Assembly (NCBI GenBank): GCA_902597385.1
Contig: CACJXQ010000003.1
Coordinates: 53,006-117,005, forward strand
From: an uncultured Pseudomonadota bacterium
GTDB taxonomy: Bacteria > Pseudomonadota > Gammaproteobacteria > Ga0077536
Direction of reading: 5' to 3'
Length of the DNA: 64,000 nt
Position 1 is the first letter of the stretch; every line of letters starts with the position of its first letter. The notes under the pieces are model-generated. The model saw nothing but the letters and a program-made list of their open reading frames with translations. It was not told where the DNA came from and did not search any database. The translations under genes were made by a program, and so were the position numbers. Positions 11,889-50,053 of this stretch are shown here, piece after piece.

Positions 11889-12920
11889 CTAATGTTGAGC
11901 ATCAAGCCAAGTAGCTATCACTCCCCCAGTAGAGCGACCAGCGGATTTGCCAACATAAAGGCCCACGTGGCCACAATCCATTTCGATCTCACTGTAATCA
12001 GGATGGGTTATAAGCCGTGCGAGCGCCTTTGACGATTCGATAGGGACGATGTGATCATTACTTGCGAAGATATTTAAGATCGGGGCTCTAATATCACTTG
12101 GTTCCACATGCAAGCCATTCAAAAATAGAGTCTTCTCCACTAAGGCGTTCTTTTGATAAAAAGTGGAGACAAATTCCATTAAAGCACTAGAACTAATGGC
12201 TGGGGAGTCAAAAATCCATTTCTCCATCTTTAAAAAATTTTGTACATAGGCAAGATCATGTCCATTTTCGATGAGATCAAAATATTTCTTTTGCAAAAGC
12301 TTATAAGGCTTAAGAAACAAAAAGAAAAAATTCAGCATTCTCCCATCGATTGTTTTGGGGAATTTTTCGAAAACTTTAAGATCTACATGCCTAATAAGGG
12401 CACTTAGTCTATCCTTTTCACTGTGAAAATCAATTGGGGTTGCCGTTGTTATCAAAGAGGAGATCTTTTCTGGAAATAGGCTCGCATAACAGACTGCAAA
12501 GGTTCCCCCTTGGCATAATCCGATAACATCTATTGCCTCTTTCGGAGAGACACCCCGAATATAGTCCACAGCGCTACCAAGGTAATCTATAATGTAGGTT
12601 GATAATTCAACTTCCGCATCGTTATCTCCAGGGTCACCCCAGTCTATAAGGTAGACAGGAAAACCAAAATCACAAAGCTCCTTTATTAAAGATCTTTCGG
12701 ACGATAGATCTGCGATTTCAGGTCGATTAACCAATGAGTAGACTAGCAGTATAGGACGATTATTTTTGGTTGCACCAGTACTTTCGTACTTGTACAAAAC
12801 CATCTCATCCTTTTGAAATTCCACTGTTCTGCGACTTAACCCAATTTTGATTGGCCCCGACCTATCAATATTTTTTAGTAGGGCTTTTAATTTGGAGTGA
12901 GAGTTTCTGGACTCTTTCAT
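11889..12920 (-). CDS. phaC: Class III polyhydroxyalkanoate synthase subunit PhaC
   Basis: A 343-residue alpha/beta-hydrolase-fold synthase, the size of the short class III PhaC (about 355 residues), not the ~590-residue class I type. The catalytic triad is visible: Cys in the lipase-like box GLCQGG (about 148), Asp in FASNDHIVP (about 288), and His in DCGHVGLY (about 318). It polymerises hydroxyacyl-CoA into PHA together with PhaE. It is 66 bases downstream of phaE on the same strand. Confidence 0.93.
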   Translation of the reverse strand: MKESRNSHSKLKALLKNIDRSGPIKIGLSRRTVEFQKDEMVLYKYESTGATKNNRPILLVYSLVNRPEIADLSSERSLIKELCDFGFPVYLIDWGDPGDNDAEVELSTYIIDYLGSAVDYIRGVSPKEAIDVIGLCQGGTFAVCYASLFPEKISSLITTATPIDFHSEKDRLSALIRHVDLKVFEKFPKTIDGRMLNFFFLFLKPYKLLQKKYFDLIENGHDLAYVQNFLKMEKWIFDSPAISSSALMEFVSTFYQKNALVEKTLFLNGLHVEPSDIRAPILNIFASNDHIVPIESSKALARLITHPDYSEIEMDCGHVGLYVGKSAGRSTGGVIATWLDAQH

Positions 12921-12986: not shown

Positions 12987-13508
12987 TTACATCTCTTTTG
13001 ATAGATGAGAAATGCAAGAATTAGACAGCTTTCCGAAATCTTTCGAGAATTCCGCCGTTAAAATCCACTCAGTATGAGCATCATCAGCACACTCTATCCA
13101 TTTTGCAAATACCTCTTTAGTGTCCAAACTATCACAATGCATGGTTTTCATTCGAAGGTTCTCTAAGGCAATAGAAATTGTATTTAGTGAGCCAGCGAGG
13201 AGACGTAGATAGGCTGCCACTAGGGGATCGCTAGATGAATCCGTTTCGCCTAATTTTTTATCTTCAAGATTCAGAGTCTCCCCAAGAGTTTTTAGCAGAG
13301 AGTAGGAGGGAAACATCAATTCCGCAAAACCATTTTTCTCGATAATGTCAAACCACTTTCTTTCAAAGACTCTTGTATCTTTATTAGTCCGTTCTTGATC
13401 TTCCTTAAAAAGGATTTTCAATACATTAGCTAATTCCTGCCACTGCTCGACAAGTAAGTCACCTACATATTTTTCTAGCTGATCTTTATGCTTCCTACTT
13501 ACGGTCAT
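12987..13508 (-). CDS. phaE: PhaE-like subunit of class III PHA synthase
   Basis: A 173-residue mostly helical protein placed directly upstream of phaC, with a C-terminal segment (ECADDAHTEWILTAEFSKDFGKLSNSCI) resembling the conserved end of PhaE. PhaE partners PhaC in class III synthases. Characterised PhaE proteins are roughly twice as long, so this is a short form lacking much of the N-terminal region. The identification rests on position plus the C-terminal pattern. It follows acs by 30 bases, so acs-phaE-phaC may be one operon. Confidence 0.7.
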   Translation of the reverse strand: MTVSRKHKDQLEKYVGDLLVEQWQELANVLKILFKEDQERTNKDTRVFERKWFDIIEKNGFAELMFPSYSLLKTLGETLNLEDKKLGETDSSSDPLVAAYLRLLAGSLNTISIALENLRMKTMHCDSLDTKEVFAKWIECADDAHTEWILTAEFSKDFGKLSNSCISHLSKEM

Positions 13509-13538
13509 TGTCTTCGGAGAAACGCAGTTCTAGAGTCT

Positions 13539-15479
13539 TTATAGTGATTGCAGGTAACTTTTTTTAAGCTCTTCAACAACCGACGGATCTGCTAGGGTAG
13601 TAGTATCTCCCAGATTCTCCAACTCATTTGCAGCGATTTTCCTTAAGATTCTCCTCATGATTTTTCCTGACCTTGTTTTAGGTAATCCTGGCGCCCACTG
13701 TATCTTGTCGGGGTTAGCAATAGGTCCTATCTCCTTTCTGACTAAATCAACCAACTCTTTCCGTAGATTTTCTGACGGTTGAATCCCATTCATTAAGGTC
13801 ACGTATGCATATATTCCTTGGCCTTTTATATCATGAGGGTAACCTACCACTGCCGCTTCTGAAACGTTTTCATGCAGGACTAGCGCGCTCTCTACCTCTG
13901 CAGTTCCCAACCTATGGCCAGATACATTAATCACGTCATCCACTCTGCCAGTAATCCAGTAATAACCATCACCATCTCGACGGGCTCCATCACCAGTAAA
14001 GTAGTATCCTGGATAGGTGCTGAAATAAGTCTCTTTAAAACGTTTGTGATCACCAAAAACAGTACGCATTTGACCAGGCCAAGATTTCTTGATCACCAGA
14101 GAACCCTCACCCTGGCCCTCTATTTCTTGGCCATCTCCATCCAACAAGGCTAGAACGACACCGAAAAATGGGAGAGTAGCGGATCCCGGTTTTAATGCTC
14201 TAGCGCCAGGAAGTGGAGTTATCATGATTCCACCCGTTTCAGTTTGCCACCAAGTATCGACAATCGGGCACCGTTCTTCACCAACAACTCTATAATACCA
14301 CTCCCATGCTTCCGGATTTATAGGCTCCCCTACCGTACCTAGAACTCTCAAGCTACTTCTGCTGGATGATGTGACGAATTCATCTCCTTGTCCCATCAAA
14401 GCTCTCAGGGCCGTAGGCGCAGTGTAAAATATATTTACCTGGTGTTTATCAACGACTTCCCACATTCGGCTGGCCGTTGGATAATTTGGAAGTCCTTCGA
14501 ACATAAGCGTCGTAGCCCCATTTGCCAACGGGCCATAGACAATATAAGAGTGTCCAGTAACCCATCCCACATCAGCAGTACACCAATAAATCTCTCCTGG
14601 TTGGTAATCAAATACGTAGTGATGGCTCATTGCCGCATGAAGCAAATAACCTCCTGTTGTGTGTAACACCCCCTTGGGCTTCCCAGTGGAACCAGAGGTA
14701 TAAAGAATGAATAACGGATCTTCTGCCGAACACTCCTCCGCTGGACAATCCAACTCGGCCGCCACGATACATTCATGGTACCAAACATCCCTCCCTTTGA
14801 CCCAATCAATCTTTCCGCCCGTTCGCTCTAAAACGAAAACAGTGTTAACGTCGGGACAGTTTTTCAGAGCATCGTCTGCGTTCTGCTTAAGGGGTATTTT
14901 TTTCCCACCTCTTACTCCTTCATCCGCAGTAATCAAGGCAGTACATTTCGAGTCCAAAATTCTGTCTTTCAATGCATCGGGGGAAAATCCTCCAAACACT
15001 ATAGAATGAACCGCACCAATTCTGGCACATGCCAGCATAGCCACCGCGGCCTCGGGCACCATTGGCATGTATATGGACACCCTATCACCTTTTTTAACAC
15101 CTCTTGATTTCATCGCATTGGCAAAACGACAAACTTCCTCATGTAACTCTCGATAGGTTATTTTTCGGTCCTCAGAGGGATCGTCTCCCTCCCACAAAAT
15201 AGCAATTTGATTCTCTTTTTCAGGCAAATGTCGATCTATACAATTTGAGGAAGCGTTCAATTTTGCTCCATCAAACCACGAAATTTCTGCGCTGTTAAAA
15301 TCAAAAGAAGAAACTGTTTCCCAAGGTTTACTCCAAGTAATGAATTTCCTCGCGTACTCCGCCCAAAACACGTCAGGATTATTTACCGAAGATTCATACA
15401 TTTCTCTATATTTACGGTCACTCACATGCGAGTTAGAGAACCTGTTTTGGTCAACCGGATAAACCTTTTCATCTTTCAT
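13539..15479 (-). CDS. acs: Acetyl-CoA synthetase
   Basis: A 646-residue AMP-forming ligase of the usual Acs length. It shows the nucleotide motif [14 protein letters not shown], the WWQTETGG motif, the hinge [20 protein letters not shown] and the C-terminal catalytic lysine in [15 protein letters not shown], the site of Pat/CobB acetylation control in other bacteria. It makes acetyl-CoA from acetate. Transcribed toward phaE and phaC, it would feed PHA synthesis and, through the TCA cycle and pckG, gluconeogenesis. Confidence 0.96.
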
Positions 15480-15671: not shown

Positions 15672-16682
15672 ATGAACAGTGAATTTGGCGAATACAAAAA
15701 AGAGCTACAATTTGCTCTGGAATCAGTCCGATTAGCAAGCAAAGCAACTTCTAAAATTCAAAAATCCCTAAAAAAGGGGGATATAGAAAAGAAAACAGAT
15801 TCTAGCCCCGTCACTATCGCAGACTATGCAGCCCAAGCCATAGTCAATAAGCACCTTTTTCAATCTTTAGGTGACGATCAAAAAATGGTGGCCGAAGAGG
15901 ACTCAAGTAACCTGAAAAAATCGACTAACTCAGAGCTACTTGGTGAAATTGTCCGCAAAGTAAAGGAGGTCATAAATGTTTCTGACTCATCTGAGATATT
16001 AGATCTCATTGACAAAGGGAACCATGATGCTTCTTCAGACAGATATTGGACTCTGGATCCTATTGATGGAACAAAAGGATTTATTAGAGGAGAACAATAT
16101 GCCATCTCTTTAGCGCTAATTGAAAATGGGGAAGTCATTTTAGGTGTATTGGGTTGCCCTAATTTATCTTCTAACCATATGAAACCTTTCGGATCTGGAG
16201 ACGACGAGGGTACTATTTATTTTTCGGTAAAAGGGAAAGGATCTTGGTCAGGCCCAACACATGGCCTTATTAAAAAAGATAGGTTAAGGATTAGTGATAA
16301 AATCACAGCCGATGAATGCCGCGCTTGCGAGTCAGTAGAATCCTCCCACTCGAGATTCAGCTATAGCAGCCGTATTTTCGATAAATTGGATATATCTTTA
16401 CCACCCTTGAGATTAGATTCACAATGCAAATATGCAGTAGTCGCAAGGGGACAAGCTGAAATCTACTTAAGGATTCCCACCGACTATCATTACGAAGAAA
16501 AGATTTGGGACCACGCAGCTGGTTCTATAATCGCGCAAGAAGCAGGAGCCACGGTAACGGATATCAAAGGGGAACAACTAGATTTCAGAATGGGGAAAAC
16601 TCTGAAGAAAAACCAAGGCATTGCTTGTACTATACCTCCTATTCATAACAAATTGCTTGAGGCTATAGGCAGCACCTTATGA
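15672..16682 (+). CDS. 3'(2'),5'-bisphosphate nucleotidase (inositol-monophosphatase superfamily)
   Basis: A 336-residue metal-dependent phosphatase. Motifs seen are the metal-binding Glu pair AEEDSS (about 75), DPIDGTKGFIRG (about 128-140) and the C-terminal WDHAAG. The GTKGFIRGEQYA segment and the length fit the HAL2-like enzymes that dephosphorylate PAP/PAPS, longer than the ~250-residue E. coli CysQ. The reaction recycles the by-product of sulfate assimilation and is sensitive to lithium in characterised members. It stands alone, 193 bases from acs in a divergent arrangement, so the control region is shared. Confidence 0.85.
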   Translation: MNSEFGEYKKELQFALESVRLASKATSKIQKSLKKGDIEKKTDSSPVTIADYAAQAIVNKHLFQSLGDDQKMVAEEDSSNLKKSTNSELLGEIVRKVKEVINVSDSSEILDLIDKGNHDASSDRYWTLDPIDGTKGFIRGEQYAISLALIENGEVILGVLGCPNLSSNHMKPFGSGDDEGTIYFSVKGKGSWSGPTHGLIKKDRLRISDKITADECRACESVESSHSRFSYSSRIFDKLDISLPPLRLDSQCKYAVVARGQAEIYLRIPTDYHYEEKIWDHAAGSIIAQEAGATVTDIKGEQLDFRMGKTLKKNQGIACTIPPIHNKLLEAIGSTL

Positions 16683-16784
16683 AAACCAAGAAAAGCTATT
16701 CATGGGCTATGAGAAACTCTCTAGCCGCGGTATAGTGAGGTTCATTTCTATGTTTATAAAAAATTAAAAAGGGGGATTTAAATA

Positions 16785-17198
16785 ATGAGCATTACGGCAA
16801 CCGCCTTAATCGGTTTAGTTATATGGACAATTGTCCTTGCCTTCGTGGTGATAGGAAAAAGACTATCGTCGGTTATCGGCGGAGAAAAAGATATACATAC
16901 CTTTCAACCGGATGGAAAAGACGTAGGAGATTTTGGACTCAGAGCCACACGTGCTCACCTCAACTCGCTAGAAGTTCTTCCACTAGCTGCAGGCATTATG
17001 CTACTTGCAATCGCTACCGATAATACTGCTATCACAGATGGTCTGGCTATGGCTTTTCTTTACTGCCGGGTAATTCAATCGGTGATTCATCTAATCTCTG
17101 TATCTAAAATGATGGTACTTTTAAGAGCTACCTTTTTTAGTGTGCAATTTGTGTTCTTAATTATTTGGGCTCTGGCCTTGTGTAACGTCACCGGCTAA
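16785..17198 (+). CDS. MAPEG family membrane protein
   Basis: A 137-residue protein with about four predicted membrane helices (residues 4-24, 60-80, 84-100 and 113-134) and the MAPEG signature RATRAHLNSLEVLPL. The family includes membrane glutathione S-transferases and related proteins, and bacterial members are mostly uncharacterised. Good ribosome site (AAGGGGG). It ends 10 bases before a strong hairpin. Confidence 0.82.
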   Translation: MSITATALIGLVIWTIVLAFVVIGKRLSSVIGGEKDIHTFQPDGKDVGDFGLRATRAHLNSLEVLPLAAGIMLLAIATDNTAITDGLAMAFLYCRVIQSVIHLISVSKMMVLLRATFFSVQFVFLIIWALALCNVTG

Positions 17199-38646: not shown

Positions 38647-39537
38647 TTATTTTAACTCTTTTTCAACAAACTCCAAGACGCTCTGAGAAGACTCAAAAAC
38701 CAAATCCTCAAACAATTTCTCGTAGAGCATCTTTTTTTTGGCTAGTATAAATATGAATTTCATTACTTTTTTAGGAACAGAAAAGAGAATAATCGGTTCA
38801 TTTTTGTTTAACTTTAAAACAATGGATTCAGTTGAGAGCGGTTGAGGATCGGTTATCAGTTCAATTCCTTGCCATTTTACCTTGTCTAGAGCATAGTCTG
38901 TTACTACATTCGCGAGCGTTTCCACCGAAATAATCGAACGCCTATTACCGACACCCTTGAAAGGCAGAGGAACCCGCCAGTTGATAATTTTTTTCAACAA
39001 ACCGAGGTTTCCTGGAGCCTCCTCTCCATATACTAGTGGCAACCTTAAGATGAGGACTTCGATACCATATGAGGAGGAGTTTTCAACCAAAAATTTTTCA
39101 GCATCGAATTTCGACTTTGAGTAAGGAGTTTTTGGTGATAACTTTGATTTAAGATTCAACCGCTTCGTGGCTGACGTTAACCCATAAACGCCCACTGTGC
39201 TGAAAAAAACAAATTTCTTGACACCCGCCTCAGCGCACATTTGAAACAACATTTTCGTTGCCAAAAAATTAAGGGCTTGGTACTTCCTGTTTTTCTCTTT
39301 CCCATGAACCAAAGCTGCACCGTGCACAAAGGTGTCCACTCCATCTAGAAGAGAAACGTCGATTTTCGTAACATTCTCCAGACTGAATTCGCTTACTTTA
39401 TAGTCGCACTTTTTCTTCTTTGACCTCTGGTAGGACACTACCTTTATATTCTTCTGGATCGATCGCTTGATGATCTCTTGGCCACAGAAACCAGTCCCAC
39501 CAGATATTCCTATAACTTTAGTCATTTTTGTTCTCAA
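38647..39537 (-). CDS. NAD-dependent epimerase/dehydratase family protein
   Basis: A 296-residue extended SDR. N-terminal GISGGTGFCGQEI binds the dinucleotide, and the catalytic pair is Ser-Thr in FFSTVGVYG and YxxxK in TPYSKSKFDAEKF. Similar proteins are UDP-sugar 4-epimerases and lipopolysaccharide O-antigen nucleotide-sugar dehydratase relatives. It ends the host segment before the mobile element. No other sugar genes are nearby, so a sterol or other small-molecule substrate is equally possible. Confidence 0.8.
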   Translation of the reverse strand: MRTKMTKVIGISGGTGFCGQEIIKRSIQKNIKVVSYQRSKKKKCDYKVSEFSLENVTKIDVSLLDGVDTFVHGAALVHGKEKNRKYQALNFLATKMLFQMCAEAGVKKFVFFSTVGVYGLTSATKRLNLKSKLSPKTPYSKSKFDAEKFLVENSSSYGIEVLILRLPLVYGEEAPGNLGLLKKIINWRVPLPFKGVGNRRSIISVETLANVVTDYALDKVKWQGIELITDPQPLSTESIVLKLNKNEPIILFSVPKKVMKFIFILAKKKMLYEKLFEDLVFESSQSVLEFVEKELK

Positions 39538-39767: not shown

Positions 39768-39786
39768 CTACTCCCACTCAATAGTT
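39768..39786. repeat. attL core: duplicated 3' end of guaA
   Basis: CTACTCCCACTCAATAGTT in the same orientation as the guaA end at 48482-48500 (16/19 identical, with an uninterrupted identical block TTCCCACTC/CTCCCACTC covering TCCCACTC). Read on the minus strand it still encodes T-I-E-W-E-stop. Confidence 0.9.
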
Positions 39787-39825: not shown

Positions 39826-39845
39826 ACTTTGTAGGAACTTTGTAG
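39826..39845 (+). repeat. Left arm-type sites: ACTTTGTAG pair, 11-base period
   Basis: ACTTTGTAG at 39826-39834 and 39837-39845, exactly one helical turn apart, 40 bases inside attL. Identical pair in the same orientation near attR. Likely arm sites for the integrase. Confidence 0.7.
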
Positions 39846-39952
39846 GTTCATTTTGACTTCTATACTCGCACACACACTTATAACTTATTGAGAACACAAC
39901 TATAAATCATCGTTTTACGAAAACAAAACGATTGTTTGACTTATTATTTTAC

Positions 39953-40067: not shown

Positions 40068-40652
40068 ATGAAAAAGGTTTGTTTATACGCAAGGGTTTCA
40101 ACGAAGGAACAGGACTGCGAGAGACAGTTGATAGAACTAAGAGAGGTCGCAGAAAACCACGATTACGAAGTAGTCGCAGAGTATGTTGATGAAGGGATTT
40201 CTGGTGCAAAGAAATCTCGTCCTGCTTTAGACAAAATGCTGAAGGATGCAATGTCTCGTAAGTTCTCTGTGGTAATGACTTTGGAACTATCAAGGTTAGG
40301 TCGTTCAGTATCCAATATGTGCGAGATAGTAGAGATTTTGAAGTCTAAAAAAATAGACCTCTTTATCAAAAACCAGAATGTAGATACTTCAACAATAGTC
40401 GGTGAGTTCTTCTTCAACATAATGAACTCTGTTGCTCAGTATGAAAAAGACTTGATTAGAGAGAGGGTTGTGTCTGGGTTAGAGAACGCAAGGAAGAAAG
40501 GACGGATTGGAGGAAGACCTACTAATCTCAATGAGGAAACCAAGAACAAGATTATTGAGATGAAACGCAATAAAGTCGGGTTGAAAAAGATTGCGGTAGA
40601 AACCAAGTGCGGTGTCTCTACCATACGCAAGTTTCTAAAAGAGGTTGCGTAA
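40068..40652 (+). CDS. Serine recombinase (resolvase/invertase family)
   Basis: A 194-residue small serine recombinase. The catalytic Ser is at 11 in YARVSTKEQD, with SRPALDKML, the LSRLGRS arginine motif, the long E helix (IMNSVAQYEKDLIRERVVSGL) and a C-terminal Hin/resolvase-type HTH (GLKKIAVETKCGVSTIRKFL). Such proteins resolve multimers or invert DNA. In an element with its own tyrosine integrase, a resolvase of plasmid-like multimers is the simplest role. It ends in KEVA, from an AGAGGTTGCG end shared with other element genes. Confidence 0.93.
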   Translation: MKKVCLYARVSTKEQDCERQLIELREVAENHDYEVVAEYVDEGISGAKKSRPALDKMLKDAMSRKFSVVMTLELSRLGRSVSNMCEIVEILKSKKIDLFIKNQNVDTSTIVGEFFFNIMNSVAQYEKDLIRERVVSGLENARKKGRIGGRPTNLNEETKNKIIEMKRNKVGLKKIAVETKCGVSTIRKFLKEVA

Positions 40653-40654
40653 AG

Positions 40655-40688
40655 AACTACAAGTTGTGAGTTTTTGGAGAATACCCTT
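40655..40688 (+). repeat. Element motif copy 1, upstream of the rep-like gene
   Basis: AACTACAAGTTGTGAG-TTTTTGG-AGAATACCC. Copies 2 and 3 are at 43802 and 43925. It contains the odd palindrome ACAA-G-TTGT. Confidence 0.8.
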
Positions 40689-40715
40689 CCGCTACTACTA
40701 CACTATCTATTAGTG

Positions 40716-40736
40716 CTTTTTAGAAAACCTAAAAAG
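40716..40736. other. Perfect hairpin before the rep-like gene, candidate nick site or terminator
   Basis: CTTTTTAG-AAAAC-CTAAAAAG, an 8-pair stem with a 5-base loop, 102 bases before the likely Rep start and 64 bases after the recombinase stop. Without a T-run it is a weak terminator; hairpins of this kind occur at rolling-circle double-strand origins. Confidence 0.45.
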
Positions 40737-40837
40737 ACTATATATAAATAATATAAATAGATTTGCAGAAAAGAAAAGATGACTTTTTAGATGTTCTCGT
40801 TGTCTTTCTAATCTGCAATGTATGGGGTGAAAACGGA

Positions 40838-41407
40838 ATGGGTGGAGTTCAAAAATACGAGATACAAAAATGGTTAGAGGGGTTTTCTTTCAGTCATCTC
40901 ATAACGATTGAACCCACCCCATTCCTACCGCACAAAAGAGATGAAGTCCTACAAAGATTTAGGATTATTGAGTTCTTCATAAACAAAAAGTATTTGAGGA
41001 ATAGTTTTACTCAATGGATATATGAAGATAGATTTTGGTTTGTGGGTTGGAAACAGGGAGATGGAACTACGAAGAACCGACATTACCATCTACTTCTACA
41101 CTCACCTGACCTTATCTACAAGAATACTGGTGTGAAATACCAACTCGCTATGGATATTTGGTGGAACTGGATACAACTTCCTTCCGTCAATCCCTATACG
41201 CAAAAAAGAAGAAAGATGTTTTATGGAAGTGGAAATCTTCCGATAAAAGTAGAACGCATCAAAAGTAATACTGGTGCAGTCCGCTATTCTTCAAGGGATA
41301 TGGACTATTGGTCGGAAGATGCAGACGATTTCTTTTTCACCACCCCCAATAGACCGACAAAGAACCGCACAACGGTTCCCTCGTCTTACGAACTATCCAG
41401 TTGTTAG
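40838..41407 (+). CDS. HUH-endonuclease Rep-like protein (putative rolling-circle initiator)
   Basis: From ATG 40838 (preceded by GGGGTG) the product is 189 residues; the track's TTG start at 40763 adds an unlikely hydrophobic leader. Three HUH-type motifs appear in order with normal spacing: FSHLITIEPTP (residues 18-28), the metal-binding RHYHLLLHSP with His82 and His84, and a tyrosine motif VRYSSRDMDYW with Tyr150, which resembles the YxxKxxD motif of Rep proteins. No helicase domain is attached, so host UvrD/Rep helicase would be needed. A function in nicking the element origin is inferred from motifs, a nearby hairpin and repeats. Confidence 0.65.
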   Translation: MGGVQKYEIQKWLEGFSFSHLITIEPTPFLPHKRDEVLQRFRIIEFFINKKYLRNSFTQWIYEDRFWFVGWKQGDGTTKNRHYHLLLHSPDLIYKNTGVKYQLAMDIWWNWIQLPSVNPYTQKRRKMFYGSGNLPIKVERIKSNTGAVRYSSRDMDYWSEDADDFFFTTPNRPTKNRTTVPSSYELSSC

Positions 41408-41967: not shown

Positions 41968-42197
41968 TGTCCTCTATGTTTGATACTTTTATGCGTTCAA
42001 GGATTGAACCTGACCGACAACAGAAACAAAACCAAGAAAGGTATAAATCTATGTCGCAGAAAAGTCTTTTAGAGAGAACCAGAACACAAAACAGACCTAT
42101 TGCTGATATGAGTTCTGCTCTAAAAAAGGTGAGGACAAGTAAGGTAGGACTACCACATTCTTATGTATCTGCTACGACTACCGCACCTTATAAGTAA
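41967..42197 (+). CDS. Unknown small basic protein
   Basis: 76 residues, rich in Arg, Gln and Ser (SRIEPDRQQKQNQERYKSM), predicted disordered. Its ATG overlaps the RHH stop codon by one base (TAATG), so it is translationally coupled. No family recognised. It might assist the RHH protein or the replication machinery; no direct evidence. Confidence 0.5.
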   Translation: MSSMFDTFMRSRIEPDRQQKQNQERYKSMSQKSLLERTRTQNRPIADMSSALKKVRTSKVGLPHSYVSATTTAPYK

Positions 42198-42264
42198 AAG
42201 AAACTCTAATGATTTGTTATACCGCCTCCCAAGAAAGTAGTTTATCAAAAGAGTTTAGGATAGA

Positions 42265-42291
42265 GGTGTCCCATTCAGTTATGGGAACACC
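42265..42291 (+). other. Hairpin in the element, transcript 3' region
   Basis: GGTGTCCCAT and ATGGGAACACC with one bulged A around TCAGTT. It lies 67 bases after the small basic gene and may stabilise or end that transcript. Confidence 0.4.
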
Positions 42292-42410
42292 CTGTCCCTT
42301 TATAAAAAACCTAACTAAAACTGGACTTTTTCTAATACAGTTATTTCTCCAAAAATATAGTTATTTTCGTTATGAACTTACTTTTGTAAGATAGTTTTAG
42401 AAGGGTTATG

Positions 42411-42449
42411 GACGGAGAGGTCTTGCATAGAGACTTCTTCGTCTTTTTT
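42411..42449 (+). terminator. Strong rho-independent terminator
   Basis: GACGGAGAGGTCT pairs fully with AGACTTCTTCGTC (13 pairs, two G-U) around a 7-base loop, then TTTTTTA. It marks the end of the plus-strand operon that begins near the rep-like gene, and faces the minus-strand gene at 42455. Confidence 0.85.
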
Positions 42450-42454
42450 ATTCA

Positions 42455-42661
42455 TCAGTCTTTCCATTCTTTTATATGGATAGGATGCTTATAACTACCC
42501 CACATACTATACCCATCTACTCTCACTTCTATTCTTTTATCATTATCGTTTGCAGAAAAAAACATTCCTATATTCCACACTTGAACCAACGCAATCACAC
42601 CCAACAGAACGATTACTACTGGTTGTAGTTTGACCTGATAAACAATCGTTTCCTTACTCAT
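42455..42661 (-). CDS. Small single-helix membrane protein
   Basis: 68 residues. Residues 13-34 (VVIVLLGVIALVQVWNIGMFF) form one transmembrane helix; the rest is a polar C-terminal tail. A GGAGG ribosome site precedes the start. It is 15 bases downstream of the HTH gene and probably cotranscribed. Function unknown; small membrane proteins of this kind occur in phage and plasmid modules. Confidence 0.55.
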   Translation of the reverse strand: MSKETIVYQVKLQPVVIVLLGVIALVQVWNIGMFFSANDNDKRIEVRVDGYSMWGSYKHPIHIKEWKD

Positions 42662-42676
42662 AGTCTTACCTCCTTG

Positions 42677-43768
42677 TTAGACGATTTCGTGTTCCTCAAT
42701 ATACCAACCCAACATTTTTTGGATTTCCTTGTCGTTGTAGAGTTCATCTGCTTCCTTATCTTCCTTCTCTTTCTTCTTCCTCAACTTCCTTTGTTCTTCC
42801 TCTAATCGCAGTTCTTCCAACACTTCCTCTCTGGTGAGTTCTTCTTCTGGTTCTGGTGGAATGTAGTTAGGGTCAGGTTCTATATTGTTATAGGGAAATG
42901 CGGTGTGATTAGGAACTCTCTTCCAACGATGAATGTATTTCCCCTTCTTACCTAATCTTTCTGTCCTGTAAGTTTGCAATCTTCTGCGTTCTGCGTCAGT
43001 TATATCCTCTGGGATAGGTGGATAGGGGAAATGACCTATACAAACATTATCAAGGATTTCATCTGCTCTGCGTCTATATTCGGTTAGGTCAATCTCTCTG
43101 GGGTTCTTTATTGTTATTCCCCTGTCTTTGTTTCGTGCAACTCTTTTCCGTTCAATCTCTTTTATTTCTGCACCAATGGTTTTCCAATCTGTTTTCTTGT
43201 ATTTCCCACCATATGCATTGTCTTGTAGGTAGTTCTTTATGGTTGAGAGGGACAGATTGACCTGCCTTGCAATCTTATGAAGTCCTACACCCTCTAACCT
43301 CAATCGCAGTATTTGCGTCTGCTTATCAGGTGCTATGCGATAGTGTTCGTAATGCTTGTGTAGTCGTTCATACACCAGTAATGGAAATCGTAGGTCATCT
43401 CTTTTGGAGTTCGTGGTAGTAGAAAACTTCGGTTCAGTGTTCCATTTCCTCAACACCTTTCCGTCCTTCTGGGGTTTGGAATAACCGAACAGGACTTCCC
43501 ATCGTTCCACAGGATGAGACTTCCCATCATAGACACTCTTTCTGGTTTGGGGTTCTTTCCACCATTCGTCAAAGGAAGTGGTGCTGATGACTTTACTTCC
43601 ACCCCAACCCTTATATTTCGTCCAATCAACTTGTCTGGTCGGGTCTGCATCTGCGACTTGTAGAAATCTATACCAGTAGAAATAAGTGGTATAGAAATCA
43701 TCTAACCAAAGTTTTTTATCCTTTCGGTATTTGTTGTATCTGCTGTCTCTATTCCACTTCCTACCCAT
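42677..43768 (-). CDS. Large HTH protein of unknown family
   Basis: A 363-residue protein. N-terminal Trp/Tyr-rich region (residues 1-120, for example FDEWWKEPQTRKSV), a helix-turn-helix at about residues 153-180 (LRLEGVGLHKIARQVNLSLSTIKNYLQ), then a very basic and later Glu/Lys-rich coiled tail (EEELTREEVLEELRLEEEQRKLRKKKEKEDK). No family recognised. It is divergent from the operon at 44014; the intergenic region holds copies 2 and 3 of the element motif, so it is a candidate regulator binding those sites. Confidence 0.6.
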   Translation of the reverse strand: MGRKWNRDSRYNKYRKDKKLWLDDFYTTYFYWYRFLQVADADPTRQVDWTKYKGWGGSKVISTTSFDEWWKEPQTRKSVYDGKSHPVERWEVLFGYSKPQKDGKVLRKWNTEPKFSTTTNSKRDDLRFPLLVYERLHKHYEHYRIAPDKQTQILRLRLEGVGLHKIARQVNLSLSTIKNYLQDNAYGGKYKKTDWKTIGAEIKEIERKRVARNKDRGITIKNPREIDLTEYRRRADEILDNVCIGHFPYPPIPEDITDAERRRLQTYRTERLGKKGKYIHRWKRVPNHTAFPYNNIEPDPNYIPPEPEEELTREEVLEELRLEEEQRKLRKKKEKEDKEADELYNDKEIQKMLGWYIEEHEIV

Positions 43769-43801
43769 TCTAAAAGTCTAACAAATAGACCTCTTTTCCC
43801 A

Positions 43802-43960
43802 AACTACAAGTTGTGAGGTTTTGGCGATTACCCCCTCACAAAAACGATAATGGATACATCAGTTGGGGAAATAACTTCTCCAAGAAAATAAGGGGAAAAC
43901 GAGTAAAAACGACAGGAAAAACCAAACTACAAGTTGTGAGGTTTTGGTGATTACTCCCCC
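43802..43960. repeat. Element motif copies 2 and 3 in the divergent intergenic region
   Basis: AACTACAAGTTGTGAGGTTTTGG at 43802-43824 and 43925-43947 (identical through that block), each followed by CGATTACCCC or TGATTACTCC. A shared AAACGATA follows near both. Start-to-start distance is 123 bases. They lie between the HTH gene (minus) and the 44014 gene (plus), an operator-like setting. Confidence 0.85.
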
Positions 43961-44013
43961 CGATAAACGATACTAAATATATAGAAATAACATAACAAAT
44001 ACAGGAGAAAGTT

Positions 44014-44463
44014 ATGACTACAAAAAACATAAAAGAAGTGGTTTTCACAGAAGACCAATATGATGAACTGAACCAGATACTCTACAAAGAAGAGTTAGGG
44101 ACTATTCACAAGACCCAACTATTTGCAGATTGTTTTGAGGACAACCTTGACCTATTCAATGCGTGGAAGGAACAGTTCCTCACAGAAACAATCACCCTTT
44201 CTGCAGATTACAGGGTCTATGCATCTCAATACGACATAACAATAGATGCACACGACATAGACCCAGACAGTTGGGATGCAATAAATCGTGGGGACAAATG
44301 TTGGGACGAAGTAGTGTGTTGTGAAGGTTCTGGGTTAGAACCACACGATGCAGACCTCTCTGTAGAGAGTGTAGATAGTGTAGATGAGCAATCAAGGAAA
44401 CCATCTATTCGTCTTTCCTACGACCAATACCTGATTACAACAGGACAAAAGAAGGTCGCATAA
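44014..44463 (+). CDS. Acidic protein of unknown function
   Basis: A 149-residue protein with 32 Asp/Glu and 13 Arg/Lys by count, so strongly acidic. Ribosome site AGGAG before the ATG. No family is recognised. It is the first gene of the plus-strand block and ends in KKVA. Strong acidity is compatible with a DNA-mimic or anti-restriction role, but nothing else supports that. Confidence 0.55.
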   Translation: MTTKNIKEVVFTEDQYDELNQILYKEELGTIHKTQLFADCFEDNLDLFNAWKEQFLTETITLSADYRVYASQYDITIDAHDIDPDSWDAINRGDKCWDEVVCCEGSGLEPHDADLSVESVDSVDEQSRKPSIRLSYDQYLITTGQKKVA

Positions 44464-44607
44464 GTGAAAGGGGTTGGGGATAAAAACACATATTTCTAAC
44501 CCCCTTTCATCTCAAAAATGAGACTACCAAAAATCAACAAGTTAGGAGTGCAGAACCAACCTTTTTCAGTGGGGGTTTTAGACCCCCCTGTTTGAGGGAT
44601 TGCGAAA
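44464..44607. other. Spacer with two G/C-rich hairpins
   Basis: GAAAGGGGTT/AACCCCCTTTC (44466-44508) and CAGTGGGGG-TTTTAGA-CCCCCCTG (44567-44590). Both G-runs sit between the acidic gene and a downstream operon; either could terminate or partly shield the transcript. Confidence 0.45.
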
Positions 44608-44901
44608 GTGAATGAAATGTCTAACCGAAGGAAAGAAGTGAAATGTTTTCTCAAAGAACTGAAAGGTCAGGTGGAAACACTTGATGAGGTGATAGGGAAG
44701 AAACACAACAAAGTCTATATCTCTGTAAGAGATACAGAGGGAGACATTGTAGAACTTCCACCAATAGTTATGAGTAAGACACCTTCTTGCGTTTTTTGGA
44801 GAGTAGATACGACTAAACACATAAAACGAATATTGAGGGAACACGACATCCCTTATGAAAACACAAAAACAGGTTTTCTAACGATTACCAACAACCAGTA
44901 A
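44608..44901 (+). CDS. Unknown element protein (97 residues)
   Basis: Starts at GTG 44608, nine bases after GAGGG; the next ATG (44617) is too far from that site. Charged protein with helical N-terminus (NRRKEVKCFLKELKGQVETL) and a later beta-rich region. No family recognised. First of five plus-strand genes with short gaps. Confidence 0.5.
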   Translation: MNEMSNRRKEVKCFLKELKGQVETLDEVIGKKHNKVYISVRDTEGDIVELPPIVMSKTPSCVFWRVDTTKHIKRILREHDIPYENTKTGFLTITNNQ

Positions 44902-44912
44902 GGACAAATGAT

Positions 44913-45095
44913 ATGAAACTACAAGATTTAGACAACCCAGAAGGGATGAAGTCTTTTGTGAAGGATTTTACGGAATACCTTATTTCCCAGAAACCAGATT
45001 TGGAAAAGGAAATCAGGGAAACAATGAAATACGCAGAAAAAGAATGTGATGCGATTTTTGACGCAACTACGAACAAACCACCGTTTTATCTATAG
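44913..45095 (+). CDS. Unknown element protein (60 residues)
   Basis: Short acidic helical protein (FTEYLISQKPDLEKEIRETMKYAEKECDAIF). Start ATG follows AAGGAC. It lies 11 bases after the previous gene and 12 bases before the next. No family recognised. Confidence 0.5.
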   Translation: MKLQDLDNPEGMKSFVKDFTEYLISQKPDLEKEIRETMKYAEKECDAIFDATTNKPPFYL

Positions 45096-45107
45096 GAGGC
45101 AAAGACG

Positions 45108-45854
45108 ATGAATGAGTTTGAAAAAGTAATCCAAGAAGGTTGTGAGAAAAGGAGAAAAGAAGAAATAGGAAGATGTGTAATAAACATCAACTCCCCTTAT
45201 AGTTCAAAATCCTCAATAGCAACTTCAAAGAAAAGAATAAAAGAGATTGAAAAAATACCCTTTGACTGCGAAATAAAAAACAAAGAGGACGCAAAAGAGT
45301 TCTTTGATAAGTTTGCGAGTTCAATACTTTTTAGAAAATGTTTTGGGAAAATCATTATTCCTACCCCTAACAGATTTGGTAAGACAATCTTTGGGAAACT
45401 TCGAAAAAGTTGGAATGAATGTAATAACCTTGTTTTCATTTTTGAGGACGGAACTGCACTACCACACCTATCCTCTTTCCAATCCAAGACACATAGTTTT
45501 GAAGAAAAGTTGGAAGTCAAAGTAAGAAAAAACGCACGTTATGTGAATAAGACACCAGAGGAATGTGTGGAGTATTTTGAAAAAAACTTCTTTGGTGATG
45601 CGACTGAAAGAGAAAAAGTATCGGTTAGTTCTACATTCGTCATAGAGTTCAAAAACGAAATAGATTTTGAACTTCCTTTGACTGGAAACCTGACGGAACA
45701 AGAAAAGATTTCCTATTTACAGGATTTCATCTCAAAGAACGGTGGATGTATGGATATATACGACACTTCCAAGACCTTCGCAAACCGCAAATACCTGCAA
45801 AAGGATTTTGACTTCCAAATCATTCAACCAGTAGAAGAGAAGGAGGTTGCGTGA
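45108..45854 (+). CDS. Unknown element protein (248 residues)
   Basis: Perfect AGGAGG ribosome site. Lys/Glu-rich, mixed alpha/beta, with no catalytic motif recognised. It ends in KEVA, where the AGGAGG of the next gene is embedded in the codons. The largest product of the small-gene block, so the best candidate for a key function there. Confidence 0.55.
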   Translation: MNEFEKVIQEGCEKRRKEEIGRCVININSPYSSKSSIATSKKRIKEIEKIPFDCEIKNKEDAKEFFDKFASSILFRKCFGKIIIPTPNRFGKTIFGKLRKSWNECNNLVFIFEDGTALPHLSSFQSKTHSFEEKLEVKVRKNARYVNKTPEECVEYFEKNFFGDATEREKVSVSSTFVIEFKNEIDFELPLTGNLTEQEKISYLQDFISKNGGCMDIYDTSKTFANRKYLQKDFDFQIIQPVEEKEVA

Positions 45855-46108
45855 TGAAAGACAAACGATACACCATAAAAATGTCCCTAAACATAGAAGA
45901 AACTAATGATACTTGTGGGGAAAAGAACATCACCTTTTATAACGAGGATAATGCACTCGACCACATTATTATTTTAGGAGAGTTTTTTGACTTACTTTTA
46001 GAGAACAAGAGTTGGGGAACGACAGGTTCTAATGACGAACTGGTTGAACGCATACTAAAACCCATAAGAGAAAAAATAGAACCTCCAAAGAAAAAGGAGG
46101 TTGCGTGA
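45854..46108 (+). CDS. Unknown element protein (84 residues)
   Basis: The start is ATG 45854, overlapping the previous stop (TGATG), seven bases after AGGAGG; the track's GTG at 45851 is one codon earlier. Acidic in the middle. It ends in KKEVA through the same embedded ribosome site. No family recognised. Confidence 0.5.
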   Translation: MKDKRYTIKMSLNIEETNDTCGEKNITFYNEDNALDHIIILGEFFDLLLENKSWGTTGSNDELVERILKPIREKIEPPKKKEVA

Positions 46109-46470
46109 TGAAAGACGATAATACTTTTGCGTTAGATGTAATAAAAACCTATGTGAGGGAATACAAAAGAACGAGAAGAACCACAAAAATACCTCTTTCT
46201 CTATTTGACCCTAATATGACGGAGAACATTTACATAAACCCTTACCGACAAGGGGGGAGGAAAAAACACCTTATCCAATCACAACGACAGTATGACGATT
46301 GGATAGAGAAAAAAGAACCATTCCCATATGCAATAACTGGTTTTAGATTGAATGACCCAATAACGGAGGTATGCGAAGTTATATACGACTATGCAGTCAA
46401 AAGTAGGATAGAGGAACTTGGTGGTTTTTCCTACGAAAAGAAACGACCTCACTTGCGTTTGGTGCAGTAG
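46108..46470 (+). CDS. Unknown element protein (120 residues)
   Basis: Start ATG 46108 by TGATG coupling, seven bases after a second AGGAGG. Basic and aromatic (VREYKRTRRTTKIPLSLF, ...NPYRQGGRKKHLIQSQRQYDDW). Nucleic-acid binding is possible by charge only. Last gene of the plus-strand block; no clear terminator follows. Confidence 0.5.
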   Translation: MKDDNTFALDVIKTYVREYKRTRRTTKIPLSLFDPNMTENIYINPYRQGGRKKHLIQSQRQYDDWIEKKEPFPYAITGFRLNDPITEVCEVIYDYAVKSRIEELGGFSYEKKRPHLRLVQ

Positions 46471-46897: not shown

Positions 46898-48256
46898 CTA
46901 CTCTCTCGCCATTAGATTTCTGGGTAGTTCGTCATCACCTATAAACAATGTATCTGCATCGTCATAAGTGGATTTCTTACGAGTGATATAGTCCATTCGT
47001 TTCTCAACATCAGGGTGTCCGTAATGTTCCTCAATATACTTGACGGAACATCCCATAATCGCCGACAGAGTAAAGACATCTACATTCCCAAAGTTTAGAC
47101 GATAGGTTGCAAAAGTATGTCGCAAACTATAATAGGTATAAGGTAATCCAACCTCATATTTGTCTATACCACTCTCTTCCTTTATTACTTTCCACAAATC
47201 GTAAAGAACATCTCTTTTGATAAGTTCTTTGGGATTATCATAGTCAGGGAAAACAAAGTCTCTTGGTTTGGTCGCTGGTGAGTATCTTTTGATGCGGTCT
47301 AATATATCGCCTCTCAAACCAATCGCAGTTCTTTCTCCTTTGTGTTTCACTTTTGAGATTTCTGGTGGAACAACAATCTTCACATTTGGATACTTGTTCT
47401 TACCTTTGATAATAGAAACCAAGTTCCATTTCAGTTGTCTTGCTTCACCTAAACGCAGTCCTGTATTTGCAAGAACAAAGATAAAATCACGCACTAACTT
47501 ACGATGGTATTTTTCTTTCTTATCCTTGACTGACTTGTCCCACTTGTTTAGGTATTTCCACAGACATCGGTATGCTTCTACTGGTAAGTGTTCTCTCTTA
47601 CGAGTGGTCTTTGCCATCTCTTCCCATTTAGGAACTTGATTACCTGCTATATACCCTTCTTCTATTCCAAACTTATACATAGACCCGATTGTTGCTCGTT
47701 CATTTATCAGGGTAATGTTTTGGACTTTGGGTGAGTTGTCTTTACGAAACCGATAATACTGACGGTATTTTTTATCATCTATGTTTGCGACACTTGTATT
47801 CTCACCGACAAACGCAAGGAACTGCTTGGTCTGTGTCTTTATAGTTCCCCATCTCCCTTGCGTGATATGTCCGTCATCCACTCGTCTTTGTTGGTGTTGC
47901 ATATACAACTCAACCAACTCTTTCGCATCAAGGGAAAAAATCTTTCTCCCTGTTTGCATCAAACCCATAATGGAATAGTAGTTTTCTTTTGCGACTTCTT
48001 TTGCCTTTCCTAAATCTCTTTCTCTTGTAGATTTACGGAAATACTTTCCCTCCTTCCTCACCAAATAACGCATTTGCCAAACATCACCAGATGCTTTTGT
48101 GCGAAAGAGTTTTACATCTCCATCAAGGATGTCGTGTTCTTCACTATGGAACTTTACGACTTTCTTTTTAGTCTTTTTCTTCTTCCCTTGACGCACTCCT
48201 GCTGGAGTAGAAAGTGCATCGTCTTGGTTTAGAAGTTCTCGTTTCTTTGGAGACAT
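46898..48256 (-). CDS. int: Tyrosine recombinase (integrase)
   Basis: A 452-residue phage-type integrase: Lys-rich N-terminus, SAM-like core-binding domain (about residues 105-210), catalytic domain with Arg in NTGLRLGEARQLKW, SLRHTFATYRL, and the nucleophile Tyr in YIEEHYGH. It faces away from guaA at the right edge of the element, the usual place for an integrase. It would catalyse integration and excision at the guaA core. Confidence 0.95.
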   Translation of the reverse strand: MSPKKRELLNQDDALSTPAGVRQGKKKKTKKKVVKFHSEEHDILDGDVKLFRTKASGDVWQMRYLVRKEGKYFRKSTRERDLGKAKEVAKENYYSIMGLMQTGRKIFSLDAKELVELYMQHQQRRVDDGHITQGRWGTIKTQTKQFLAFVGENTSVANIDDKKYRQYYRFRKDNSPKVQNITLINERATIGSMYKFGIEEGYIAGNQVPKWEEMAKTTRKREHLPVEAYRCLWKYLNKWDKSVKDKKEKYHRKLVRDFIFVLANTGLRLGEARQLKWNLVSIIKGKNKYPNVKIVVPPEISKVKHKGERTAIGLRGDILDRIKRYSPATKPRDFVFPDYDNPKELIKRDVLYDLWKVIKEESGIDKYEVGLPYTYYSLRHTFATYRLNFGNVDVFTLSAIMGCSVKYIEEHYGHPDVEKRMDYITRKKSTYDDADTLFIGDDELPRNLMARE

Positions 48257-48400: not shown

Positions 48401-48420
48401 ACTTTGTAGATACTTTGTAG
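48401..48420 (+). repeat. Right arm-type sites: ACTTTGTAG pair, 11-base period
   Basis: ACTTTGTAG at 48401-48409 and 48412-48420, same orientation and spacing as the left pair, 62 bases inside attR. Confidence 0.7.
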
Positions 48421-48481
48421 GTCAATACTAAAAATAAACTTGTTTATTTTCAATAAGTTATGAAGATTATTGTATTTCCTG

Positions 48482-48500
48482 CTATTCCCACTCTATCGTT
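48482..48500. repeat. attR core: 3' end of guaA
   Basis: CTATTCCCACTCTATCGTT, the last codons and stop of the intact guaA, matching the left core 16/19 with the identical block TCCCACTC. Confidence 0.9.
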
Positions 48501-50053
48501 CCAGGAGGTTTGCTGGTAACGTCATAAACGACTCTTGATACATTAGGAACTTGATTAACTATTTTTGCAGCCACTCTCTCTAAAAACTTTTGGTCTAGCT
48601 CTACGCACTTTGCAGTCATAAAATCGTCAGTGGTGACAGCCCTCAGTGCTATGACATGCTCGTAACTTCGGGCGTCACCTTTAACTCCTACAGAGAAAAT
48701 AGGCAAGAAAACAGCGAAAGCCTGGCTTATCTTGTGATAGAGATTGGCATCTCTTATTTCCTCTAGGAAAATATTATCTGCCTCCCTTAACACCTCGAGG
48801 TAACTAGACTTAACTTCCCCCAAAACACGAACAGCTAGTCCAGGGCCAGGAAACGGGTGCCGTAGAACTATATCTTCAGGCACTCCTAATTCCTTTCCCA
48901 CATTCCTAACCTCATCTTTAAATAACAAACGTAAAGGCTCAATTAATTTTAACTTCATGTGCTCTGGGAGACCACCGACGTTGTGATGGGATTTTATCAC
49001 ATGACTTCCAGCACCATCTGCTGCTGATTCAATGACATCTGGGTAAATGGTCCCTTGAGCTAACCAAGATATCCCAGCTATTCTGAGAGATTCCCGCTCA
49101 AAAACCTCAATAAACTTTTTTCCGATAATCTTTCTCTTTTCTTCAGGATCAGTTACGCCAGCTAATGCCTCCAGAAATTCGTTCTGAGCATTAACAAAAC
49201 GAATGTTTAAACCCATAGATCCTTGGAAAGTATTAATGACTTGCTCAGCTTCCCCTAATCTCAACAAACCATTGTCTACAAATACGCAAACCAATTGATC
49301 TCCTATCGCTCTGTGCAAAAGAGACGCTGCTACAGACGAATCAACCCCGCCCGAAAGGCCAAGTAGAACCTTTTCAGCGCCTACCTCTCTCTTGATAGAT
49401 CTTAAACTACTTTTGATAAAGTCCTCAGTACTCCATGATTTAGCGCAGCCACATATCTCTACACAAAATCGTTCCAAGATTTCCTTACCGCGTTTGGTAT
49501 GTGTTACTTCTGGATGAAACTGCAATCCATAAAATCTTCTAACTTCATCAGCGATCCCTGCTATGGGAGTATTCAAGGTAGAAGCGATCACCTTAAAGCC
49601 AGGAGGCAGCTTTGTTACGCTATCCCCATGGCTCATCCAGACATCTAGAAGACCATGCTTACTCTCATTAGTGGCATCCTGAATTCCTTCTAGTAGTCGA
49701 GAGTGTCCCCTTGCTCGTACCTGCGCAAATCCAAACTCTTTTTCTTGACTTGTTTGCACCTGTCCTCCGGTATAAGAGGCAAGACTCTGCATACCGAAGC
49801 ATATCCCAAGGATGGGAACTCCAAGAGCGACAAATAAAGGCAACCCTTCGACATCAACAGTATCATTTGATACTGAATCAGGACTACCTGATAGTATCAC
49901 TCCGCTAGGCCGAAAAATTCCGATCTTTTCTTTAGAAACATTGGGCGGATAAATCTCGCTGTATATCCCTATTTCCCTAACCCTTCTAGCTATTAGCTGC
50001 GTGTATTGGGAGCCATAATCAATTATTAAAATGCGATCTAAATTAACTGACAT
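48482..50053 (-). CDS. guaA: GMP synthase (glutamine-hydrolysing)
   Basis: A 523-residue enzyme, full length. N-terminal glutaminase with the cysteine motif GICFGMQSLA (about residue 85), the ATP-pyrophosphatase P-loop LSGGVDSSVAA (about 230) and the C-terminal dimerisation domain ending in TIEWE. It converts XMP to GMP. It lies 27 bases after guaB. The element at its 3' end leaves the C-terminus intact. Confidence 0.98.
   Translation of the reverse strand: MSVNLDRILIIDYGSQYTQLIARRVREIGIYSEIYPPNVSKEKIGIFRPSGVILSGSPDSVSNDTVDVEGLPLFVALGVPILGICFGMQSLASYTGGQVQTSQEKEFGFAQVRARGHSRLLEGIQDATNESKHGLLDVWMSHGDSVTKLPPGFKVIASTLNTPIAGIADEVRRFYGLQFHPEVTHTKRGKEILERFCVEICGCAKSWSTEDFIKSSLRSIKREVGAEKVLLGLSGGVDSSVAASLLHRAIGDQLVCVFVDNGLLRLGEAEQVINTFQGSMGLNIRFVNAQNEFLEALAGVTDPEEKRKIIGKKFIEVFERESLRIAGISWLAQGTIYPDVIESAADGAGSHVIKSHHNVGGLPEHMKLKLIEPLRLLFKDEVRNVGKELGVPEDIVLRHPFPGPGLAVRVLGEVKSSYLEVLREADNIFLEEIRDANLYHKISQAFAVFLPIFSVGVKGDARSYEHVIALRAVTTDDFMTAKCVELDQKFLERVAAKIVNQVPNVSRVVYDVTSKPPGTIEWE

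Follow-up and report, generated by a model that had tools for sequence, protein, structure and literature searches.

A putative single-domain Rep-type HUH endonuclease in a guaA-integrated tyrosine-integrase element of an uncultured gammaproteobacterium

Described systems and the guaA element

Integrative and mobilizable elements (IMEs) whose relaxases resemble rolling-circle initiators (Rep_Trans/MobT, Rep_2) are known, and several of them reside at the 3' end of guaA (PMC5704250). Integrative elements with a rolling-circle-type initiator and no helicase have also been described, and in some of them the initiator doubles as the relaxase (PMC5704250). The PICMI marine phage satellites encode an integrase; rolling-circle replication and packaging as concatemers have been reported for them (PMC10803314). 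The HUH initiator RstA of CTXphi, which has no helicase of its own, uses host UvrD (PMC4439123). Here we describe an integrative element at guaA in a 64,000-nucleotide stretch of an uncultured gammaproteobacterium (contig CACJXQ010000003.1; hereafter the window, to which all coordinates refer unless another locus is named). One open reading frame (ORF) of this element, at 40838..41407 on the + strand, is predicted to encode a single-domain Rep-type endonuclease of the HUH superfamily.

We consider the protein, with a probability of roughly 0.6, to be a single-domain Rep-type HUH nicking enzyme and a divergent member of a small HUH family that travels with one family of tyrosine integrases. The computations show the motifs, their conservation, a consistent predicted fold, the limits of the element and the HUH family's association with the integrase. 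Chromosomal elements combining this integrase family with the HUH family were found mostly in Proteobacteria. An element pairing an integrase with a rolling-circle initiator is of a known kind; the family of the window HUH protein appears to be undescribed.

The element has features in common with each of these systems. Like the IMEs, it combines a tyrosine integrase, a position at the guaA 3' end and one rolling-circle-type HUH protein without a helicase; however, the IMEs with rolling-circle initiators described in PMC5704250 are streptococcal and use other Rep families, and the window element has no recognised mobilisation partner. With the PICMIs, for which rolling-circle replication is reported, it shares the form of a small marine integrative element with an integrase. 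PICMIs differ in their primase-type protein, their site beside fis and their AlpA, and no HUH protein is mentioned for them (PMC10803314). CTXphi RstA is likewise an HUH nicking protein of an integrative element and depends on a host helicase, as proposed here for the window element, but CTXphi is a filamentous phage with an initiator from a different Rep family (pfam02486). REP_ORF2-G2P (PF23343) and YagK_YfjJ_C (PF11726) of filamentous phages and cryptic prophages have the same motif order as the window protein, with HYH followed by a helix bearing a conserved Trp and then by the Tyr motif. Among the Rep groups tested, the YagK/YfjJ_C-type Reps gave the best profile score with the window protein. 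The window protein differs from both families in having YxxR instead of YxxK, and its element carries no recognised phage structural genes. Charybdis elements (PMC12324425) were also considered and rejected; those are about 4.6 kb in size, and no hallmark genes were found.

The element is about 8,714 bp long and lies between 15-bp repeats of the 3' end of guaA (48482-50053, - strand). The right attachment (att) repeat TCCCACTCTATCGTT (48486..48500) is located within the guaA 3' end, and the left att repeat TCCCACTCAATAGTT (39772..39786) is a diverged copy whose minus strand encodes TIEWE and a stop codon, equivalent to the GuaA C-terminus. In a relative (G002) whose GuaA is 96% identical, the guaA site is without the element: the alignment stops at the guaA stop codon and resumes at window position 39512, with a different 0.5-kb stretch in the gap. 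The tyrosine recombinase (integrase) gene (46898..48256, - strand; 452 aa; Pfam Phage_integrase, 3.7e-10; PHROG integrase, 1.2e-29) starts next to the guaA end and is transcribed into the element. The earlier note on this DNA, made from the sequence alone, had placed the HUH-type ORF in an integrase-bearing element; with a tyrosine integrase, flanking att repeats at the target gene and an element-free relative, the locus has the features of an integrative element. The HUH-type ORF lies at the opposite end from the integrase, together with a small serine recombinase of the resolvase/invertase type (40068..40652, + strand; 194 aa; Pfam Resolvase, 2.2e-42).

The HUH-type protein and its relatives

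The HUH-type ORF begins with ATG and encodes 189 aa; an alternative TTG start at 40763 would give a 214-aa version. Codon usage prefers the HUH frame over the other five frames. Motif I (FSHLITIEP) occupies residues 18-26, motif II (HYHLLLH, with His82 and His84) residues 82-88 and motif III (VRYSSRDMDYW, with Tyr150) residues 148-158. The three motifs, their order and the lack of a fused helicase are as the earlier note had reported, and the YxxR/KxxD tyrosine motif that it recognised is present as YSSR, with Arg where Lys is usual. YxxR was also found in three of the relatives described below (L111, L127 and L067). The ordered pattern recurs in composition shuffles of the protein at a frequency of 1.75e-4, a rough guard against chance, given that the pattern was defined after the motifs were known.

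Relatives were retrieved through the integrase, which was aligned with two distant integrases and then used to scan genome contigs. A total of 79 loci with related integrases were found. The best two matches, in a Nitrospinota metagenome-assembled genome (MAG; L065, 48% identity) and a Hyphomicrobiales MAG (L066, 36%), both lie directly after guaA. The L065 contig sequence stops soon after the integrase, and the rest of that genome gave no HUH homologue, although divergent proteins could easily escape the search used. Among the integrase relatives with complete flanks, L066 is the nearest. Located at the same guaA site, it carries the integrase, a homologue of the serine recombinase (11966-12538 of that locus) and an HUH ORF (13436-13954, 172 aa) with the same three motifs in the same order (WTHMLTLGF, THFHFHVLLALD and AAKYVTKQIHSD); a second att copy delimiting this element was looked for and not found. 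An HUH-family ORF is present in 18 of the 79 loci, or 16/42 when at least 7 kb is available downstream of the integrase, at a distance of 0.4-7.6 kb downstream of the integrase with one exception. For scale, in the window's class PF23343 found a match in just 14 of 185 whole genomes. Two of the sister HUH ORFs (L139 and L141) exceed the PF23343 REP_ORF2-G2P cut-off and those of L066 and L111 match it weakly, while the L110 and L141 ORFs resemble a PHROG replication initiator.

Further genes recur at these loci. A DUF6641-type protein (PF20346, phrog_31551) is encoded in 12 of the 18 HUH loci, for example in L110 (14293-14736) and L127 (12642-13100), and also in L152 (7165-7593); a literature search retrieved no paper that mentions DUF6641. 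An AAA ATPase is located near the HUH ORF in four loci (L067 at 16279-17019, L082, L088 and L099), and the one that was scanned, in L067, resembles phage clamp loaders (phrog_168, 3.5e-19). A search starting from the HUH family retrieved four more members in other genomes. Two of these share their stretch with a serine recombinase, one of the two also with an ORF that resembles a P4-type integrase by eye, and one of the four has a DUF6641 relative nearby. A second type of HUH-like ORF, 290-330 aa long, was observed near related integrases in Terasakiella (L097) and Magnetospirillum (L098); both show weak zinc-binding matches, and one of them also a weak match to Rep_1 (17 bits). No HUH gene was seen on inspection of a second integrase of the window's own genome (L020) or of one in a relative (L021). 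The integrase alone retrieved nothing from viral contigs, and the integrase alignment led to 13 viral loci, where a phmmer search for relatives of the HUH protein came up empty.

In an alignment of the window protein with 15 integrase-linked HUH ORFs (16 sequences), H82, H84 and Y150 alone are invariant and T23 comes close, although the window protein shares just 10-18% identity with these relatives. The earlier note had named loss of these three residues in homologues as an outcome that would speak against its reading; they are conserved throughout this alignment.

Profile comparisons were run with controls. Against the YagK/YfjJ_C-type Reps the window protein scores 29.4, compared with maxima of 20.1 for 85 window ORFs and 19.4 for 120 shuffles; one of 120 HYHLLLH-keeping shuffles attains its score. 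The score falls within the range of 16.6-30.8 given by eight true Reps from a sister group; comparison with a further Rep group yielded no signal. With a profile of 17 integrase-linked HUH ORFs, built without L066 and without the window protein, the window protein's score of 23.6 is above every control (best of 87 window ORFs, 22.7; of 100 shuffles, 19.4; of 100 HYHLLLH-keeping shuffles, 22.9). The margins over the controls are modest.

The AlphaFold2 model calculated with the 16-sequence alignment is of medium confidence (predicted local distance difference test (pLDDT) 60, predicted template modelling score (pTM) 0.61) and has the HUH order of elements. Its predicted strands span residues 18-24, 67-73, 82-88 (the HUH strand, bearing both His residues) and 136-140, and its helices residues 34-49, 98-113 and 144-152 (bearing Tyr150). 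Foldseek retrieved 12 BFVD matches at E<=0.001 (2e-4 to 1e-3), the named ones being phage or viral replication proteins. In the PDB, ranks 1-8 are HUH nucleases of parvovirus, adeno-associated virus and circovirus, with no match significant alone. A predicted structure without the HUH fold was the other outcome named beforehand as contrary; the alignment-based model suggests an HUH topology.

Proposed mechanism, candidate origin and rival explanations

From these features we infer how the element may multiply. The integrase would release the 8.7-kb element in circular form from the 3' end of guaA. Next, the HUH protein would bind the element's origin and cut one strand via Tyr150, with a metal held by His82 and His84, and would remain joined to the 5' end of the nicked strand. 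Unwinding of this strand could fall to a helicase of the host, for instance UvrD or Rep, while a host polymerase copies it. The products, single strands or multimers, would serve amplification and spread, and the serine recombinase may resolve the multimers. In the earlier reading of this locus, the Rep-type HUH endonuclease within a tyrosine-integrase element is supported by the conservation and the fold model; the HUH protein may drive rolling-circle replication.

A candidate origin is the AT-rich stem-loop AGTGCTTTTTAG/CTAAAAAGACT (40712..40739, + strand) upstream of the HUH gene, and the region 40650-40840 is well folded as single-stranded DNA (z -3.7). Next to it lies the first copy of a 61-bp repeat (40652..40712, + strand), between the serine recombinase and HUH genes. 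The repeat has an exact 15-bp core, ACTACAAGTTGTGAG, and two more copies about 3 kb off (43799-43859 and 43922-43982) between divergent genes. Its copies could be operators, recombinase sites or Rep sites, and because of the further copies between divergent genes an operator or recombinase site fits equally well as an origin. The earlier note had suggested the hairpin, at 40716-40736, and the upstream repeat as the origin; the hairpin is present and well folded, but it is not exceptional in the element, where other stretches, such as 42180-42479 (z -4.4 to -4.8), fold as well or better. A GC-richer hairpin, GGTGTCCCAT/ATGGGAACACC (42265-42291), follows the + strand gene run and may be a terminator or an alternative origin.

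Several results weigh against the assignment as a Rep-type nicking enzyme. The HUH protein has no significant sequence match to a known Rep in Pfam, PHROGs, NCBIfam or the PDB, and these searches were empty or gave noise. No Pfam family matched at E<=10, including the Y1 transposase model for IS200/IS605 or RAYT proteins. REP_ORF2-G2P was unmatched both at this threshold and in the family search of the own genome, as was Rep_OBD (PF01719, the pMV158-type Rep) at E<=10 in the own genome. The curated cut-off of YagK_YfjJ_C was not reached, the likeness lying at the profile-profile level only. No convincing homologue was found in phage or plasmid collections, in the genomes of 58 relatives, in genome contigs, or in viral contigs, including pattern-limited scans with artificial motif alignments; mutated artificial copies of the protein guided the choice of scan pattern only and were not counted as evidence. 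A search of 369 genomes of the class gave weak matches only, and those inspected were noise. Family members at two sister loci, L081 (12184-12726) and L103 (7066-7710), are without the HxH pair and possibly inactive. Single-sequence AlphaFold2 produced a poor model (pLDDT 33), which was discarded, and since the alignment behind the better model was assembled from HUH-bearing ORFs, that model shows consistency and is not independent proof of the fold. A plain hidden Markov model of the sister family gives the window protein 4.6-6.3 bits; together with the modest profile margins, this means that the HUH case rests jointly on conservation, context and fold.

Compatible with a Rep-type nicking enzyme is the idea that the element is a phage satellite: a helper phage would induce excision, the HUH protein would make rolling-circle multimers and helper particles would package them. 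With 8.7 kb and a gene-poor layout, the element is similar to marine satellites, PICMIs for example (PMC10803314). In addition, four sister loci carry an AAA ATPase, and the one scanned is similar to phage clamp loaders. Nevertheless, we regard a satellite as unlikely, as no packaging, capsid-remodelling or AlpA-like gene was recognised in Pfam, PHROG and NCBIfam scans, neither the window HUH protein nor three sister HUH proteins have a significant relative in the phage collection, and pattern-limited scans of viral contigs were likewise without HUH relatives. Rather unlikely, too, is a Rep-like relaxase that nicks an origin of transfer, so that a co-resident conjugative system mobilises the excised element as an IME and rolling circle mainly serves transfer. 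In keeping with this idea, the element has an integrase, and the ORF, Pfam and PHROG scans revealed no transfer genes within it. However, neither a coupling protein nor an accessory gene for mobilisation could be recognised, the HUH relatives match replication families or nothing and never mobilisation families, and Tyr150 is C-terminal to His82/His84, whereas in classical relaxases (MOB) the Tyr is N-terminal to the HUH motif.

The protein might instead be a decayed or regulatory remnant, inactive or binding its own promoter region, in an element that replicates with the chromosome only. The strong divergence of the window protein, the Arg that it has at the motif III position normally held by Lys and the loss of the HxH pair in some sister-locus members would suit this, but the three catalytic residues are retained at such low identity, the frame is intact and coding-like, and YxxR is present in other members, which makes a remnant improbable. 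A coincidental motif likeness in a protein that is not an HUH nuclease would agree with the missing curated family match and the failure of single-sequence folding; the profile-comparison controls, the conserved H82, H84 and Y150 and the HUH genes beside related integrases leave it very improbable.

Other genes of the element and significance

Paired repeats lie inside both element ends, at 39826..39847 beside the left att repeat (ACTTTGTAGGAACTTTGTAGGT; repeat families D2 and D6) and, as its counterpart, at 48401..48422 beside the right att repeat; these are probably arm sites of the integrase. A 363-aa element protein with a resolvase-type helix-turn-helix (42677..43768, - strand; ORF list and Pfam) has no relatives in the 58 genomes or the viral contigs. 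A run of element genes listed as ORFs (44014..46470, + strand) encodes proteins of 149, 97, 60, 248, 85 and 121 aa; the 149-, 248- and 121-aa ORFs, the three of the run that were scanned, have no significant family match in Pfam, PHROG or NCBIfam. A 68-aa protein (42455-42661) has one apparent transmembrane stretch, judged by eye.

We tentatively suggest, as a possibility, that these loci represent a hitherto undescribed lineage of small integrative elements, found mostly in Proteobacteria, that combine one tyrosine-integrase family with an unrecognised small HUH initiator, often with DUF6641 and sometimes with a serine recombinase or a phage-like clamp loader. Such elements might be excised, be amplified through rolling-circle replication and spread either as satellites or as mobilizable elements. 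Because the window protein and most scanned family members escape the Pfam, PHROG and NCBIfam cut-offs, genome annotations probably present such elements as islands of hypothetical genes. Once the initiator beside the integrase is recognised, the elements gain a testable replication mechanism and a marker by which more can be found. The plan of integrase plus rolling-circle initiator, well described in streptococcal IMEs, would also be extended to Proteobacteria of marine and freshwater habitats, in which the HUH family is a different one.
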